Shown here in pieces: positions 47,936 to 54,629 of a stretch of 64,000 bases of DNA. The stretch spans positions 1 through 64,000 of the forward strand of contig MGRG01000011.1 in the NCBI GenBank assembly GCA_001798075.1, in the 5' to 3' direction. The notes below the pieces were generated by a model. That model saw only the letters and a list, made by a program, of their open reading frames with translations. It searched no databases and was not told the origin of the DNA. The stretch comes from Deltaproteobacteria bacterium RIFCSPHIGHO2_01_FULL_43_49 (GTDB lineage Bacteria > UBA10199 > SPLOWO2-01-44-7). The position numbers and the translations under genes were made by a program. The first letter of the stretch is position 1. Each line of letters opens with the position of its first letter.

Positions 47936-50900
47936 TTAATGAGAAGTTTTTACGGCTTGAATTAATGGATCGGCTTGGTCACCTTTGCCTAATCCGACTA
48001 ACAAGCTTCTGACCTGAGCGTAAAAATGATCTGCAGTATGGCGCGTACTAAAACGAATCTCTTCTCCCTGTAACCATCGTGTAAGAGGAGACCGATCATC
48101 TTGCTGTAGAACCCCATCGAGTTCTGTCTTCCGTGGAAGCACACCGCTAAACTTCAGGGCTACAGCCCTCCTTGCCTCCAACAATAATCGCTCCTTGGCT
48201 GTTTTTGTAGAGAGACTCCAACCTTGGCTTTCAAAAACCGCATCCACGATCCAGTCGTCCACTTCTTGTGCTTTTCTTCCCAACCCAACCAACAGACTTC
48301 TGACCTGATTGTAAAAATTATCAGCAGTATGGCCTTTACTAAAACGAACCCCTTCTCCCTTTAACCAGCGTGTAAGATAAGATCGAGCTTCTTGCATTAA
48401 AACCCCATCGAGACCCGGATTACGTGGAAGCACACCACCAAACTTAAGAGCTACAGCCCTCCTTGCCTCCAACAAGAGCTGCTCTTGGGCTGTTTTTGCA
48501 GAAGTATTCCACCCTTGGCTTTCAAAAACCGCACCCACGATCCACTCTTCCACTTCTTGTGCTTTTCTTCCCAACCCAACCAATAAACTTCCGACCTGAG
48601 AGTAAAAACTATCGGCAGTATTGCTCTGACTAAAGCGAATCTCTTCTCCCTGTAACCATCGTGTAAGAGGAGAGTGAGCAAGTTGCACTGAAACCCCCTC
48701 GAGACCTGGCCTGTTAGTCAAAACACCACCAAACTTGAGAGCTACAGCCCTCCTTGCCTCCAACAAGAGCTGCTCTTGGGCTGTTTTTGCAGAGTGACTC
48801 CAATCCTGGCTTTCAAAAACCGCATCCACGATCCAGTCGTCCACTTCTTGTGCTTTTCTTCCCAACCCAACCAACAGACTTCTGACCTGAGTGAAAAAAT
48901 CGTGGGTAGTATAGCCCCTACTAAAACGAACCTCTTCTCCCTTGAACCATCGTCTAAGAGGAGATTGAACGTTTTGCCCTGAAACCCCCTCGAGACCTGG
49001 CCTGTTAGGCAAAACACCACCAAACTTGAGAGCTACAGCCCTCCTTGCCTCCAATAACAATCGCTCCTTGGCTGTCTTTGCAGAAAGACTCCAACCCTCT
49101 CGATCAAAAAGGTATTTCATTAATCTCTCATATTCATCCTTCGCCTTGGCTTGTTTTTCTCCTTGTTGTTCAGCCCTCACACCAAAATAAAGTGCCATCC
49201 CCCTCCATATATTTCTCCACTGTATTTCACCCAACACCCCCCGCGACAGACTCTGTAAACTGGTACGGGTGATCGTGACCTGTTGGATCACGAGTTCCCC
49301 CTTGATGGTTCCCTCCCACTTTTCATAAAAGGCCAATGCCCCTTGAACGATCGCTATGTCTGCCGGTGTCACCGCTTCACCCCCCAGCCCCCTCTCCTCA
49401 TTATAAAGCTCTACAAAAATATCCCTGTCTTGATATAACAATGTCGCCAGTCTCCTCAAAAACCAACGGGCATTGACCCACCCTTTGCCTTGTAAAATGG
49501 CTTCCATCTCCTCTACCGGCAGGCCCAAATCAATAGCCATTGTCTCCACATCCTCTCCATACCGATTCTCCAAAACCTCCCACAACTTCGCCACCAACGG
49601 CTTTTGCAATTCTGCTTGAGCGGGTTTTGCTAATCTTCGCCGGGTCGGCAGTAATTCTCCCAAGTCTTTATGTTCGACCTTTTGTCCTTCTCGATCGATT
49701 TCAGAAACAACTTCGCCAGACATTGCATCGAATAATTCTCCTGGCTTTGCCTGGGTATGTCCAGCTACCCCCATCAAATCGCCATAAAACATCAAAGCGC
49801 GATCCATACTGTGATAGCGATCTAGAATTTCAAAAATGATCTTTGGTTTATCCAACAACAGTTCACCTCTCCGGCTCACTTCCTTGGGCCCCCTCCTGTT
49901 TAAACGTCCTCGCTCCTGACCTTTTTTAAATCTCGAAAAAGTGGGCCTACTTCCCAACAAATGAGTGAACATATATAAATCGGCCCCCTCCAGCCAGACA
50001 TCTACATTGAAGACCGCTTCGACCTCTCCCTTCTCAACGGCTGAAAGGATCTTTTCCCGAATCTCTTTTTTAGTCTCACCCGAGACAATCGCAATAACCC
50101 CGTCTATCTCTCCTTGTTTATAAGCCTCCAAACTCTTCTCCAATTCCTTCCTCCCAATGTGGCCCCGCTCTCCTCCAATCATTGTCAGATTTCTTTTTCT
50201 TAAGCCTTCCCCTTCTTGACCAAAGTAGTCTACATAGCCCTTGGCCATCATCTTTGCGTGGCGCAAATCTGCCGCGAAAGTTAAGACGGCTTCCAACGCC
50301 TCTTTGCCACTTGGGCTCTTGTCTGGTCTTCTCAATCCACTTTTCTCCAGAGCTTCAAAGAGTCTCTGGTTTCTTTCCGGATAATCCAATAACGTACTGA
50401 CCAATTCTCTGGTTTGAAAATCATTTGCGGACTTACTAATTTTTAGCTGGCTTAAATCAATCCCTGGCACTTTCACTAGATATGTCCTGGGGGTTACCCC
50501 CGATTGCATCAAGACATGTTCTGCAATCCTCACAATATAGGGCCCTTCTTTGCCGGTAGGGGTCGCTGTAAAACCGATACGATAAAAATTGGGGCTCACT
50601 TCTCTTAAAGTTCGGATCAACTCCTTCCAACTCTCTTTGCTAGTATGGGGACTTATCTCCAAATGATGAATTTCATCCACCGCGATCATCGCCAGTTTTC
50701 CTGACTGGCCAAGTGCTTTTCTCAGTTCCTTTTCAAAGCGCTCTCTCTTTTCTAAAGTGTTGACCGAAGGAATGCTGACCACCACAACATCCCCTCTTAA
50801 ATTTTTATCCTCAGCCTTATATTCGGTCACCCGAAGCCTCCTTCCAAACCTCCTTTTAAAATAAGGGCTCAATAAACGGACGACTTTGAGATTTTGCTCA

Positions 50901-51937
50901 TGAATCTGTTCCGTATGATTCAAAATAATAAATTTATCTCCCAGTTTAAATAAACCCAACTCCATGGCGGCTGCAAATGAGGCGACCATCACCCGTGTCT
51001 TGCCTCCTCCGGTCGGCATGACAATAGTCCCCACCAATAATTGCTCGGCTAGCTTCTCATTTTCCTTCAACTGCTCTTGCTGCATCTTCAATACCCCTTT
51101 GACCTTGTTCAAGGTCATCACTTGGTGGGCTCTCAAATGGAGGGCTCTTCCATAACCCACATCGTGATTGATGAGGGCATCGAGAATGGCTCTCTTCACT
51201 CCTTTCTTAATAGAAAGTTTGGGGGCTGTTGGCGGATGGATGGACTCCCTAAGTCCGATTCCGGACAAAAACTTCTCCTCAACCGGCTCGGAATATATGG
51301 AGGCCCCCAAATTCAAGACACGGTCCAATAAAATCCGCTCTCCCAAAATAATATCTTCTCTATACTGATCTCTTTCTTTGCCATGCTGTGTCTTGAATTG
51401 CGCGATCTCTCCTTCCCAAAATTTCAGTCGCTCTTGAATCAGACCCATCTCTTTTGTGTAACCTTCTCGAATCGTGGGGGATAGACTGGCTTCAACCACT
51501 CCGTAGCGCTCTGTAACCCTACCAAACTCTTTGGCCACCAAATCTAAATACCCTTCCGGACTGATTGCTCCAGTCTCCAAATCGGTCTCTTGGGGAATAC
51601 CGTTTTCACGAAGTGGGGGGAGGGATTCATCTGTCTTCTGTTTGAATAGACGGCTCGCTACCAACAAACTCCTCAATTCACTGACCAGATTACTCCTCAT
51701 TGCACTCGCCTGATTGACTCGCCCTTGCCGAACCGCTTGGACCATGGCCTGACCTTTTTGCATTAAATCCTCTTGGTCGATTCCTGGAACCTCACTCACC
51801 CCCCCGATGAGCAGACCCAAACCTGCTGCATTCCCCTCCTCTGCAAGGCTCTGCAAATCATGGCTTAAAAGATACGAAGCGGTTTGGTAGATCGCCCCAG
51901 ACGCCATGGAACTTAAAAAACCACCCGAAAAAGGCAT
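47936..51937 (-). CDS. Giant SF2 helicase-like protein with four 97-residue C-terminal repeats
   Basis: The 1333-residue protein has a helical N-terminal region (about 1-270), then a superfamily 2 helicase core. Motif I is MPTGGGKTR (near 305), motif II is DEIHH (near 415), motif III is FTATPTG, and motif VI is QERGRLNRRG (near 690). An HTH-rich middle follows. Residues about 948-1333 are four tandem repeats of 97 residues (ARRAVALKFGGVL, SPLTRWLQGEEIRFS, QVRSLLVGLGRKAQEV, WIVDAVFESQ). I know no family with this layout. It has the shared promoter motif 19 bases upstream and an AGAGGTG ribosome site. It is followed by nothing on its strand. Confidence 0.85.
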   Translation of the reverse strand: MPFSGGFLSSMASGAIYQTASYLLSHDLQSLAEEGNAAGLGLLIGGVSEVPGIDQEDLMQKGQAMVQAVRQGRVNQASAMRSNLVSELRSLLVASRLFKQKTDESLPPLRENGIPQETDLETGAISPEGYLDLVAKEFGRVTERYGVVEASLSPTIREGYTKEMGLIQERLKFWEGEIAQFKTQHGKERDQYREDIILGERILLDRVLNLGASIYSEPVEEKFLSGIGLRESIHPPTAPKLSIKKGVKRAILDALINHDVGYGRALHLRAHQVMTLNKVKGVLKMQQEQLKENEKLAEQLLVGTIVMPTGGGKTRVMVASFAAAMELGLFKLGDKFIILNHTEQIHEQNLKVVRLLSPYFKRRFGRRLRVTEYKAEDKNLRGDVVVVSIPSVNTLEKRERFEKELRKALGQSGKLAMIAVDEIHHLEISPHTSKESWKELIRTLREVSPNFYRIGFTATPTGKEGPYIVRIAEHVLMQSGVTPRTYLVKVPGIDLSQLKISKSANDFQTRELVSTLLDYPERNQRLFEALEKSGLRRPDKSPSGKEALEAVLTFAADLRHAKMMAKGYVDYFGQEGEGLRKRNLTMIGGERGHIGRKELEKSLEAYKQGEIDGVIAIVSGETKKEIREKILSAVEKGEVEAVFNVDVWLEGADLYMFTHLLGSRPTFSRFKKGQERGRLNRRGPKEVSRRGELLLDKPKIIFEILDRYHSMDRALMFYGDLMGVAGHTQAKPGELFDAMSGEVVSEIDREGQKVEHKDLGELLPTRRRLAKPAQAELQKPLVAKLWEVLENRYGEDVETMAIDLGLPVEEMEAILQGKGWVNARWFLRRLATLLYQDRDIFVELYNEERGLGGEAVTPADIAIVQGALAFYEKWEGTIKGELVIQQVTITRTSLQSLSRGVLGEIQWRNIWRGMALYFGVRAEQQGEKQAKAKDEYERLMKYLFDREGWSLSAKTAKERLLLEARRAVALKFGGVLPNRPGLEGVSGQNVQSPLRRWFKGEEVRFSRGYTTHDFFTQVRSLLVGLGRKAQEVDDWIVDAVFESQDWSHSAKTAQEQLLLEARRAVALKFGGVLTNRPGLEGVSVQLAHSPLTRWLQGEEIRFSQSNTADSFYSQVGSLLVGLGRKAQEVEEWIVGAVFESQGWNTSAKTAQEQLLLEARRAVALKFGGVLPRNPGLDGVLMQEARSYLTRWLKGEGVRFSKGHTADNFYNQVRSLLVGLGRKAQEVDDWIVDAVFESQGWSLSTKTAKERLLLEARRAVALKFSGVLPRKTELDGVLQQDDRSPLTRWLQGEEIRFSTRHTADHFYAQVRSLLVGLGKGDQADPLIQAVKTSH
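47939..49096. repeat. Four tandem 291-bp coding repeats
   Basis: The 3' end of the helicase gene consists of four direct repeats of 291 bp (the last slightly shorter), starting at about 49096, 48805, 48514 and 48223 on the minus strand. They are highly alike in both DNA and protein, which suggests recent duplication or gene conversion. Confidence 0.85.
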
Positions 51938-52036: not shown

Positions 52037-52306
52037 ATGATACGCTCTGATAAGATCCTTCCCGTCACACAGGTTAAACGGGAGCTAATGAAGCTCTTAA
52101 AAACCCTTCGAAGCAGAGGGGGAATTGTCGCTATTACCAAAGATGGTCGTGCAGCGGGTATTCTCATGAGCCCAGAGGAGTATGAGGGTCTTTTGGAAAC
52201 TTTGGAAATCTTGCAAGATCAATCACTGATCCGTTCCCTCCATCGCGCCTTGAAGGAAGGGAGTGAAAAAAGAACCTACTCCCACAAAGAGGTTTTTGAA
52301 GATTGA
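52037..52306 (+). CDS. Phd/YefM-type antitoxin
   Basis: The 89-residue protein has the Phd/YefM N-domain (LPVTQVKRELMKLLKTLRSRGGIVAITKDGRAAGILMSPEEYEGL), which binds DNA and represses the pair. The C-terminal tail would bind toxin. A TTGACA element lies at 51984-51989, divergent to the helicase gene. The stop overlaps the toxin start. Confidence 0.9.
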   Translation: MIRSDKILPVTQVKRELMKLLKTLRSRGGIVAITKDGRAAGILMSPEEYEGLLETLEILQDQSLIRSLHRALKEGSEKRTYSHKEVFED

Positions 52307-52581
52307 AGCCGTTTACCCTATTGTACACCGCCGAAGCAAAGACGCGCATTCGACATTTACATCCAACTATAAAACAAGAAATCCGAGTAGCCCTTGAGGA
52401 ACTCAAAGAAAACCCCTGGATTGGGAAAAGATTGCAAAGAGAATTGACCGGTTTATTTTCACTTAGAGTGCGAAATTATCGAATCCTTTATTGGATCAAT
52501 GTAGAAAAAAGACAAATTGAGATTTTGACTTTGGGACCTAGAAAAACAGTCTACGACGATTTTCTTGCCAAACAGAAATAA
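52303..52581 (+). CDS. RelE/ParE-type toxin (YafQ/RelE-like)
   Basis: The 92-residue protein from a TTG start has YTAEAKTRIRHLHPTIKQEIRVALEEL, a central LRVRNYRILYWINVEKRQIEIL, and a C-terminal RKTVYDD. This is the RelE/ParE fold, an mRNA interferase or gyrase poison. The TTG overlaps the antitoxin stop by 4 bases. Confidence 0.9.
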   Translation: MKPFTLLYTAEAKTRIRHLHPTIKQEIRVALEELKENPWIGKRLQRELTGLFSLRVRNYRILYWINVEKRQIEILTLGPRKTVYDDFLAKQK

Positions 52582-52620: not shown

Positions 52621-53517
52621 TTACCTTTTGAGCTTCCCTAATGTCTCTGCAGCATTTTTTGCAAGAACACGATCGCTAGACAAAACAGCTATTTTTGTTA
52701 AAGCACGGATTGCCAACACTTTTGCCCTTTTCGTTTTTCCCTTTAAAGCCAAATGCTCCAAGGCTTTAACCGACTTCGGATTGATCTGAACGACAAACGA
52801 CAACCCTACGGAGGATGCTTCCACAAACTCATTGGATTGAACAGCCAACTCCGCTAAAGCCCACGCAGCTCCTTCATTGATTTTACCTGCCATAATCATT
52901 AGGGGAATATGGGATTCCTCAAAAAGATCAATACGCTCTTTCACCAGTTCCCACAAAGCCCATGCGGAATAATAATTTACCCTGGCAGCAGCCAAGAGAA
53001 GTAAAAGATGAGTTGATGTAAAAAGATTAGCATAGTCTATTACAACGTCTCTCAGTATCTCTCCCGCATTTTCATCCACCTCAGATTCTTCTATCATTTT
53101 TTTTATTAACACTATCAACTCATCGGTTGGTTTTGCTTCTTGAGGTTTTCTTTTTGGAAAAACAGGGAATGGAAAAATCTGTGCTGAAGGGGAAGATTGC
53201 TTTCCTGCACAAGCTCCTAAAAAATTTCTTCTTAAGCGTTTCTGGGCCTCAATAAATTTGCCTTCAGGAATGGCATGAATTTGAGCGGCCAATGTTTTTG
53301 TTCTTTGTTCGGAAGGAATGGATTGCCCACTTTCTAAGCAACGCCATCTTATGTAGCTCGTTTCTAAATCATCCGGCGACATTCCTTGAGACTCGAGCAC
53401 CTCAAACAGAGCTTTCATATCAATGAGTCGCATCTGTCCCGCGGTCAAACTTTGGGCTAGCTCTGCTTGTGATGCAAAAAGAGGTGTTACAAATAAAGTG
53501 CCTCCCACTGGATTCAT
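52621..53517 (-). CDS. Unknown helical-repeat protein downstream of pgi
   Basis: The 298-residue protein has an N-terminal region (LFASQAELAQSLTAGQMRLID). A Pro-rich linker at about 115-130 (FPFPVFPKRKPQ) follows. The C-terminal part is made of helical pairs resembling HEAT/ARM-type repeats (ARVNYYSAWALWELVKE, KINEGAAWALAELAVQ, KSVKALEHLALKGKTKRAKVLAIRALTKIA). The ATG lies 2 bases after the pgi stop, so expression is probably coupled. The family is not recognised. Helical repeats usually mean protein-protein contact. Confidence 0.7.
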   Translation of the reverse strand: MNPVGGTLFVTPLFASQAELAQSLTAGQMRLIDMKALFEVLESQGMSPDDLETSYIRWRCLESGQSIPSEQRTKTLAAQIHAIPEGKFIEAQKRLRRNFLGACAGKQSSPSAQIFPFPVFPKRKPQEAKPTDELIVLIKKMIEESEVDENAGEILRDVVIDYANLFTSTHLLLLLAAARVNYYSAWALWELVKERIDLFEESHIPLMIMAGKINEGAAWALAELAVQSNEFVEASSVGLSFVVQINPKSVKALEHLALKGKTKRAKVLAIRALTKIAVLSSDRVLAKNAAETLGKLKR

Positions 53518-53519
53518 CA

Positions 53520-54629
53520 CTAAATCCTCCTCTTAATCAACTCTACCGCCGGTTGATCATAAGGGTTGATTCCCATTAAATGACCCGTGAAGGCGGTTTG
53601 AATTTGGTAGCTCATCAATAATTCTCCTAAAGTTTGGGGGCTTAAATCATCAAGGTGGATCGAAACACAAGGACATTTTTTCTCGTGCAAAGCTTGAGCG
53701 GTGGCACTGGCTTCGCGAAGCAAGAGTTGGCCCAGGGGGTCTTTTGCGTGTGTTTTTACCGTCATGATCGTGACAACTTTGTCTTTAGGGCCATCCAAAA
53801 AAAGTTGGGCCAAAGAATGTTGATCTTGCGGCCCTAAAGCAACCAGGGGAGTTTGGCCCTTCCCTTCTTTGCCTAAGCTCTCTCCCCAAAGTTGGGCATA
53901 CCATCTGCCAAAATCATAGAGACAATCGGAATAAGGCATCATGACGGAGATGGTTTTGCCGTGATCTTTATTGAGGAGATAATGAAGGAGGCCATTTTTG
54001 TGGGCATTTTCTGGGTTGCTTAAGGCCTTTCTGGCTCCCTCCAAAAGAGAATCAATATCAACACCCAAAAACGCCAGGGGGAAAAGTCCCACGGCTGAAA
54101 AAACAGAAAAACGCCCGCCGACATTTTTGGGAATGGGAAGATGGGTCAGTTTTTTCTCACGAACCGCGGCATATAATTTGCCATCCCCTTCTTCTGTCGT
54201 GACAACCATTTGTACTTTATCAAACTTTGGAGCAAAATGTTCAAAGAGTGTAGTTGTTTCAATCGTGTTCCCCGATTTGCTAATCACATTCAAACAAGTT
54301 TTGGAAAGATCAAACGTTTCTAGTAATGCCGCCACACTTTTGGGATCCGGGCTTTCCTGAATCCACAAACGTGATTTTATTTTGGGGGGCAACAAGACTT
54401 GCGCCAGGGCTTTCAGACCTTGCGAAGAGCCTCCGATTCCCAGCACGATCAAGTTTTCAAATTTTTCGGAGAACTTTTTGGCGACCTCTTTGATTGTTGC
54501 GACTCCTTCTTTGTCGAAGGGAAGATCTCGCCACCCCTCATTTGCCAAAGGAAAAGGCTCTGGCTTGAGCTTGCCTTCTGGAATACCCGACTTTGAAAAA
54601 TCAAACTGAATCATCTTTTTCTTTGTCAT
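53520..54629 (-). CDS. pgi: Glucose-6-phosphate isomerase, short form
   Basis: The roughly 369-residue protein has VLGIGGSSQGLKAL, VISKSGNTIETTT, GGRFSVFSAVGLFPLA, the catalytic GPQDQHSLAQLFLDGP and a C-terminal NPYDQPAVELIK. It is shorter than the 440-550 residues of most isomerases but keeps the active site. The first ATG codons (54641, 54629) fall inside a palindromic repeat, so the original start may have been replaced; an ATG at 54614 is also possible. Confidence 0.9.
   Translation of the reverse strand: MTKKKMIQFDFSKSGIPEGKLKPEPFPLANEGWRDLPFDKEGVATIKEVAKKFSEKFENLIVLGIGGSSQGLKALAQVLLPPKIKSRLWIQESPDPKSVAALLETFDLSKTCLNVISKSGNTIETTTLFEHFAPKFDKVQMVVTTEEGDGKLYAAVREKKLTHLPIPKNVGGRFSVFSAVGLFPLAFLGVDIDSLLEGARKALSNPENAHKNGLLHYLLNKDHGKTISVMMPYSDCLYDFGRWYAQLWGESLGKEGKGQTPLVALGPQDQHSLAQLFLDGPKDKVVTIMTVKTHAKDPLGQLLLREASATAQALHEKKCPCVSIHLDDLSPQTLGELLMSYQIQTAFTGHLMGINPYDQPAVELIKRRI

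Follow-up and report, generated by a model that had tools for sequence, protein, structure and literature searches.

The gene described here raises the question of what a tandem array of helical repeats does at the C-terminus of a bacterial helicase. The gene lies within a 64,000-nucleotide stretch of contig MGRG01000011.1 from Deltaproteobacteria bacterium RIFCSPHIGHO2_01_FULL_43_49, referred to as the window. It occupies exactly positions 47936-51937 on the minus strand and encodes a protein of 1333 amino acids that starts with ATG. A plus-strand reading is ruled out by 46 stops. The same genome encodes a paralogue of 1448 amino acids that is 66% identical to the window protein over most of its length. 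A first-pass annotation of the DNA described an SF2 helicase-like protein of 1333 residues with a terminal tandem array, and the ORF call, the ResIII/DEAD matches and Tandem Repeats Finder (TRF) all agree with that description.

The N-terminal region (residues 1-260; 51158-51937, minus strand) is common to the paralogue (58% identity) and partly to a relative in the same family (G002), and has no match in Pfam. It is followed by the SF2 helicase core (residues ~260-760; 49658-51160, minus strand), which is 53-81% identical in relatives. Pfam places ResIII (E 2.3e-17) and DEAD (E 8.3e-10), both of which pass their cut-offs, at residues 268-461, and a weak Helicase_C match, under its cut-off, at residues 610-683. 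Three motifs are readable on the minus strand. Motif I (Walker A), PTGGGKTR (residues 308-315; 50993-51016), is invariant in the three aligned helicases that bear an array, and its G-G-G-K-T-R core is invariant in all six helicases aligned. Motif II, DEIHH (residues 421-425; 50663-50677), is likewise invariant in the three, and DE-x-HH is present in six of six. Motif VI, QERGRLNRRG (residues 674-683; 49889-49918), is conserved in the six-helicase alignment. With a Walker A motif, a DExH box, motif VI and a two-lobed core, the protein is by sequence an SF2 helicase (DEAD/ResIII) and would be expected to have ATPase and unwinding activity. Searches of PDB and NCBIfam with the window protein returned generic helicase or sub-threshold matches only.

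Between the core and the array lie two further domains. The middle helical domain (residues 777-854; 49376-49609, minus strand) is predicted to be helical with low to middling confidence and is present with both of the array types described below. Its assignment as HTH-like is a lead rather than a result, because the alignment to HTH_3, in register, is weak (hhalign, E 0.03) and there is no Pfam match. When the model of residues 760-1333 is compared with known folds, the best-probability matches, to some segment of this 574-residue model, are the HigA/VapI antitoxins, which have Cro/C1-type HTH folds (probabilities 0.87 and 0.97, E 0.94-2.4). The second domain (residues ~858-950; 49088-49366, minus strand) resembles a degenerate repeat unit and may cap the array. 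In the AlphaFold model it has the helix order of a repeat unit, with a beta hairpin where the units have coil (helix, hairpin, then three helices), and it ends in FDREGW, similar to the FESQGW of the units. Profile comparison with the units (hhalign, E 0.14) does not establish homology, and the suggestion that this domain is a true fifth unit comes from the model.

The array itself is composed of four units that start every 97 residues, all on the minus strand: unit 1 (residues 953-1049; 48791-49081), unit 2 (1050-1146; 48500-48790), unit 3 (1147-1243; 48209-48499) and unit 4 (1244-1333; 47939-48208). Each was delimited by TRF, unit alignment and HMM, and unit 4 also by the array model. TRF reports a single array with a period of 291 bp at 48006-49098, and its 3.8 copies, 83% matches and score of 1423 place the array far from chance. 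The four 291-bp repeats of the first-pass annotation are therefore present, with the qualification that the last is truncated; in unit 4 the regular last helix is missing, and a C-terminal variant forms the end. The annotation's description of the repeats as near-identical was overstated, as identity between window units is 71-84% at the nucleotide level and 63-78% at the amino-acid level. Its statement that the variable positions cluster mid-unit is correct: at unit positions 25-57, 42% of residues differ between window units versus 8% in helix 1.

Structure prediction of one unit, as the annotation had proposed, gives a confident four-helix model (unit 3, folded by AlphaFold with 20 homologous units; pLDDT 93.3). 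A helix at positions 4-20 is followed by coil to position 40, a short helix at 41-46, and helices at 59-72 and 77-91. In the model of residues 760-1333 (pLDDT 86.6), the middle domain, at lower confidence, is followed by the cap-like domain and the four units. The unit has no relative among PDB folds (Foldseek, best E 3.7), the larger model has none at E <= 0.001, and neither Pfam, searched with 20 units, nor a profile search of PDB sequences gave a match. Known helical repeat families (TPR, HEAT, PPR and ankyrin) matched neither the unit by profile nor the array by fold. HTH ancestry of the 97-residue units was also tested and is unsupported. The window array is mildly basic, with a net charge of +8 in 381 residues; those of relatives carry about +1 to +4 per 100.

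An iterated HMM search recovered 22 units in six proteins. Of the 46 genomes from this uncultured class (MAGs labelled "Deltaproteobacteria"), six contain units of this kind, and about 340 genomes outside the class yielded no convincing unit. A profile match in one of the latter (G370, E 6e-4) was attributed to chance, as it falls in a GC-rich stretch with many overlapping ORFs. The helicases carry four units in the window protein, five in the paralogue and four in G002. Two other genomes of the same family encode helicase-free proteins, one of 634 residues with six units (G001) and one of 393 residues with one clear unit (G005). In a different family, a 957-residue protein joins two units to Sigma70_r4 (G023, E 8.7e-15). 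The sixth unit-bearing genome of the class encodes an SF2 helicase fragment that ends in a divergent unit (G021, E 8e-12). On contig C5 of the window genome, two adjacent genes (L054:3389-5877, minus strand; frames of 331 and 504 amino acids) contain very divergent units (E 3e-6 and 2e-7). Given homologous units in independent proteins and in varying number, we regard the 97-residue unit as a new repeat family. As a separate observation, the six-unit G001 protein is preceded by an ORF that bears the start of the cap-like domain, and an in-frame TAA separates the two (L023:3993-6392), reflecting either gene disruption or an assembly error.

The array can be replaced. In two genomes of genus g18, which belongs to another family (G018 and G023), exactly five repeats of 82 residues come after the same helicase and middle domain, and the helicase cores are 53-54% identical. 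At the level of sequence, the helicase is thus a chassis on which arrays are exchanged. Common descent of the 97- and 82-residue repeats is unsupported, as hhalign detects no similarity between them. Both families are also found without the motor. The 82-residue repeat is joined to the C-terminal domain of the RNA polymerase alpha subunit in G014 (RNA_pol_A_CTD, E 9.1e-14), and the family occurs in a 552-residue protein of G001. In G010, six loci (L103, L108, L111, L114, L117 and L124) encode small proteins of 173-264 amino acids that consist almost wholly of two or three repeats of the 82-residue type, and one protein of 372 amino acids; the small ones are possibly compact binding proteins. 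Elsewhere, a single ORF of 4355 amino acids (L018:3976-17040, minus strand) contains HEAT repeats, the helicase with five 82-residue repeats and several recurring hydrophobic segments of the type AFAAPALGLIHAFAGGDSSTSLWIAGLATLASAG.

The reading we prefer, with about an even chance of being right, is that an ATP-driven SF2 motor carries at its C-terminus a target-binding array that can be exchanged, and that nucleic acid is the likeliest target. The helicase/translocase would be the motor and the array of four-helix 97-residue units its target-binding arm. This arm would be a module, as the same motor is found with four or five units of the 97-residue family or five of the 82-residue family. 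The array would dock the motor on particular substrates, most probably nucleic acid, and unequal exchange between units may alter both unit number and middle-segment residues, and hence the target. Nucleic acid is favored as the ligand mainly because both array families accompany DNA-binding domains of the transcription machinery. The SF2 helicase fragment of G021 with its terminal divergent unit also counts in support of the preferred reading. Against it are the only mildly basic charge of the array, the lack of any relative by fold or sequence with a known ligand, the weak HTH assignment of the middle domain and a middle-segment excess that fails a sliding-window test (below). A bolder version holds that the two arrays are independent families of modular, reprogrammable nucleic-acid readers on one helicase chassis and that unequal exchange re-aims the motor; we consider this improbable. 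Should nucleic acid prove to be the ligand, the arrays would constitute new modular binding scaffolds, and the protein would be an example from nature of a helicase directed by an interchangeable arm. Should the ligand be protein, the system would still show that arrays are swapped on a constant motor in a single bacterial class. No Pfam or PDB family was found for the 97- or the 82-residue repeat, yet this motor has taken up one of them in some genomes and the other elsewhere.

Protein binding is the main alternative. The array may be a protein-protein interaction scaffold, similar to TPR or HEAT, that recruits the helicase to partners while the core and middle domain hold the nucleic acid. 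An all-helical, regular and nearly neutral array is consistent with such a role, as are the HEAT-like repeats seen by eye in a neighboring 299-residue gene product and those in giant proteins of relatives. The joining of both repeat families to promoter-DNA-binding domains argues against it, and no known interaction repeat is matched in Pfam. On balance, we think a scaffold somewhat unlikely.

The evolution of the array bears on whether its units matter individually. The two paralogous helicase cores of the window genome differ at a dS of 1.10 with a dN/dS of 0.10, and between their arrays synonymous sites are saturated and identity is just 47%. Units within the window array differ from each other at a dS of only 0.2-0.6, and units 1 and 3 share 84 consecutive identical bases, the longest exact internal repeat. 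On this evidence, expansion or homogenization of the window array postdates the split of the paralogues. The recent amplification proposed in the first-pass annotation holds in this relative sense, though not on the ground of very high DNA identity. Copy number differs between relatives, with counts of 4, 5, 4 and 6, and may also differ between strains as the annotation suggested; the pattern that it named as refuting, old divergence at an unchanging repeat number, is not observed. The unit tree is poorly resolved, and concerted evolution is not provable for every array; its sole well-supported group consists of three G002 units.

The annotation also called for a comparison of synonymous and non-synonymous changes. 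Non-synonymous codon differences exceed synonymous ones in every pair of window units, with an overall dN/dS of 0.44-0.71. Helix 1 is under strong constraint (0.09-0.23) versus 0.66-1.79 in the middle segment. The non-synonymous excess in the middle segment has a p of 0.009 by codon permutation, but when contiguous windows are slid round the unit, 9 of 84 placements are as high, which is not significant. In the units of relatives the middle segment is just modestly more variable. The pattern is suggestive of diversification and is compatible with relaxed constraint too. These values could also be produced by a structural extension of little functional effect, in which unit number drifts by unequal crossing-over and the middle loop is weakly constrained; a conserved helix 1, a relaxed loop and the overall dN/dS all agree with this, and concerted evolution by itself can yield such a pattern. 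Yet separate genera have retained an array on the helicase, and the array has been replaced by another of five units, which suggests selection for having some array. Drift of this kind is an unlikely account of the locus.

The genomic setting offers little guidance. Each helicase copy lies amid different housekeeping genes (names read from sequence): plsC-like and pgi-like genes in the window, and proS/rlmI-like and clpB/ispE-like genes at the others. These neighborhoods differ, and therefore no operon partner informs function. Neighboring ORFs in the window encode a PlsC-like acyltransferase, a 299-residue protein (52621-53520, minus strand) and a protein read as phosphoglucose isomerase. A toxin-antitoxin pair, with a Phd/YefM antitoxin and a ParE-like toxin (52037-52581, plus strand), lies directly upstream of the helicase gene and on the other strand. 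The 299-residue protein, encoded between this pair and the isomerase-like gene, is HEAT-like by eye with no Pfam match. An N-terminal likeness between it and the helicase, also suspected by eye, is unsupported by phmmer. In other genomes, proteins of the f10 family share an N-terminal module of ~290 residues (loci L021, L022, L028, L125 and L147-L165). Of the five genomes concerned (G014, G018, G023, G028 and G042), four have 52-55 scored copies each and one has 37. The partners C-terminal to this module include biotin carboxylase, Ser/Thr kinase, TPP dehydrogenase, HEAT, HTH arrays, PadR, and an SF2 helicase with Sigma70_r4. The module resembles a common tag on many enzymes.

Patchy presence (seven of 46 class genomes at E <= 1e-20), a different housekeeping neighborhood for each copy, an adjoining Phd/ParE-type pair and fast array turnover could together indicate an accessory helicase against phages or mobile elements, with the array as its fast-evolving recognition part. 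We judge this distinctly unlikely: PADLOC found no defense family above noise in the window protein, no nuclease, methylase or defense partner was found in a conserved operon with the helicase, and plasmids and viral contigs contain no relative of it. Its phage matches are generic helicases at 24-26% identity, and a PHROGs search gave generic helicase or sub-threshold matches only. Lastly, an assembly artefact in unit number or order, raised by the first-pass annotation and conceivable in a draft of 15 contigs with repeats spaced 291 bp apart, is highly improbable, as the units differ at 16-29% of bases, the 84-bp exact repeat fits within a short read, and the paralogue and other genera carry similar arrays.

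The helicase is of a familiar type. No library searched gave a match to the repeat families or to the swapping of arrays on one motor, and a literature search, mainly of open-access papers, found no description of this architecture. The core and motifs are similar to those of the RadD/YejH and type III restriction (Res subunit) groups of SF2. The RadD model (NF053632) matches residues 304-474 at 23.6 bits versus an equivalog cut-off of 720, and the RadD and Res models lack the long N-terminal region, middle domain and repeat array. The window protein has no nuclease family in Pfam and its gene no adjoining methylase, so it does not qualify as a type III restriction enzyme.

In HA-repeat (PF03457) helicases, an SF2 helicase precedes a series of small helical repeats in which tryptophans are conserved. 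The window protein is similar in both respects. HA has no match in the window protein or in the 20 units, however, and the unit is 97 residues long versus 64 HA model positions; a search for HA across the class gave no matches, and the controls were silent as well.

General screens of DNA-binding tandem-repeat proteins exist (PMC11417379, PMC5472282). TALE-like, STAR, pTERF and related proteins share with the window array tandem helical units, differences in copy number and a variable segment in a conserved frame (PMC11417379, PMC5472282); units of pTERF have three helices (PMC11417379). Unit length, the four helices and the helicase fusion set the window units apart, and they have no detectable homology to any Pfam or PDB entry. 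TALE-like repeats are 33-35-residue, two-helix units with a variable di-residue, and the TAL-like comparison in the first-pass annotation is an analogy and not membership, as the window units have 97 residues and four helices with no Pfam or fold relative. The closest likeness in organization is to polymorphic multi-domain families, in that one helicase chassis carries alternative C-terminal arrays. No toxin or immunity gene is identified here, and it is putative binding repeats, not toxin domains, that are exchanged.
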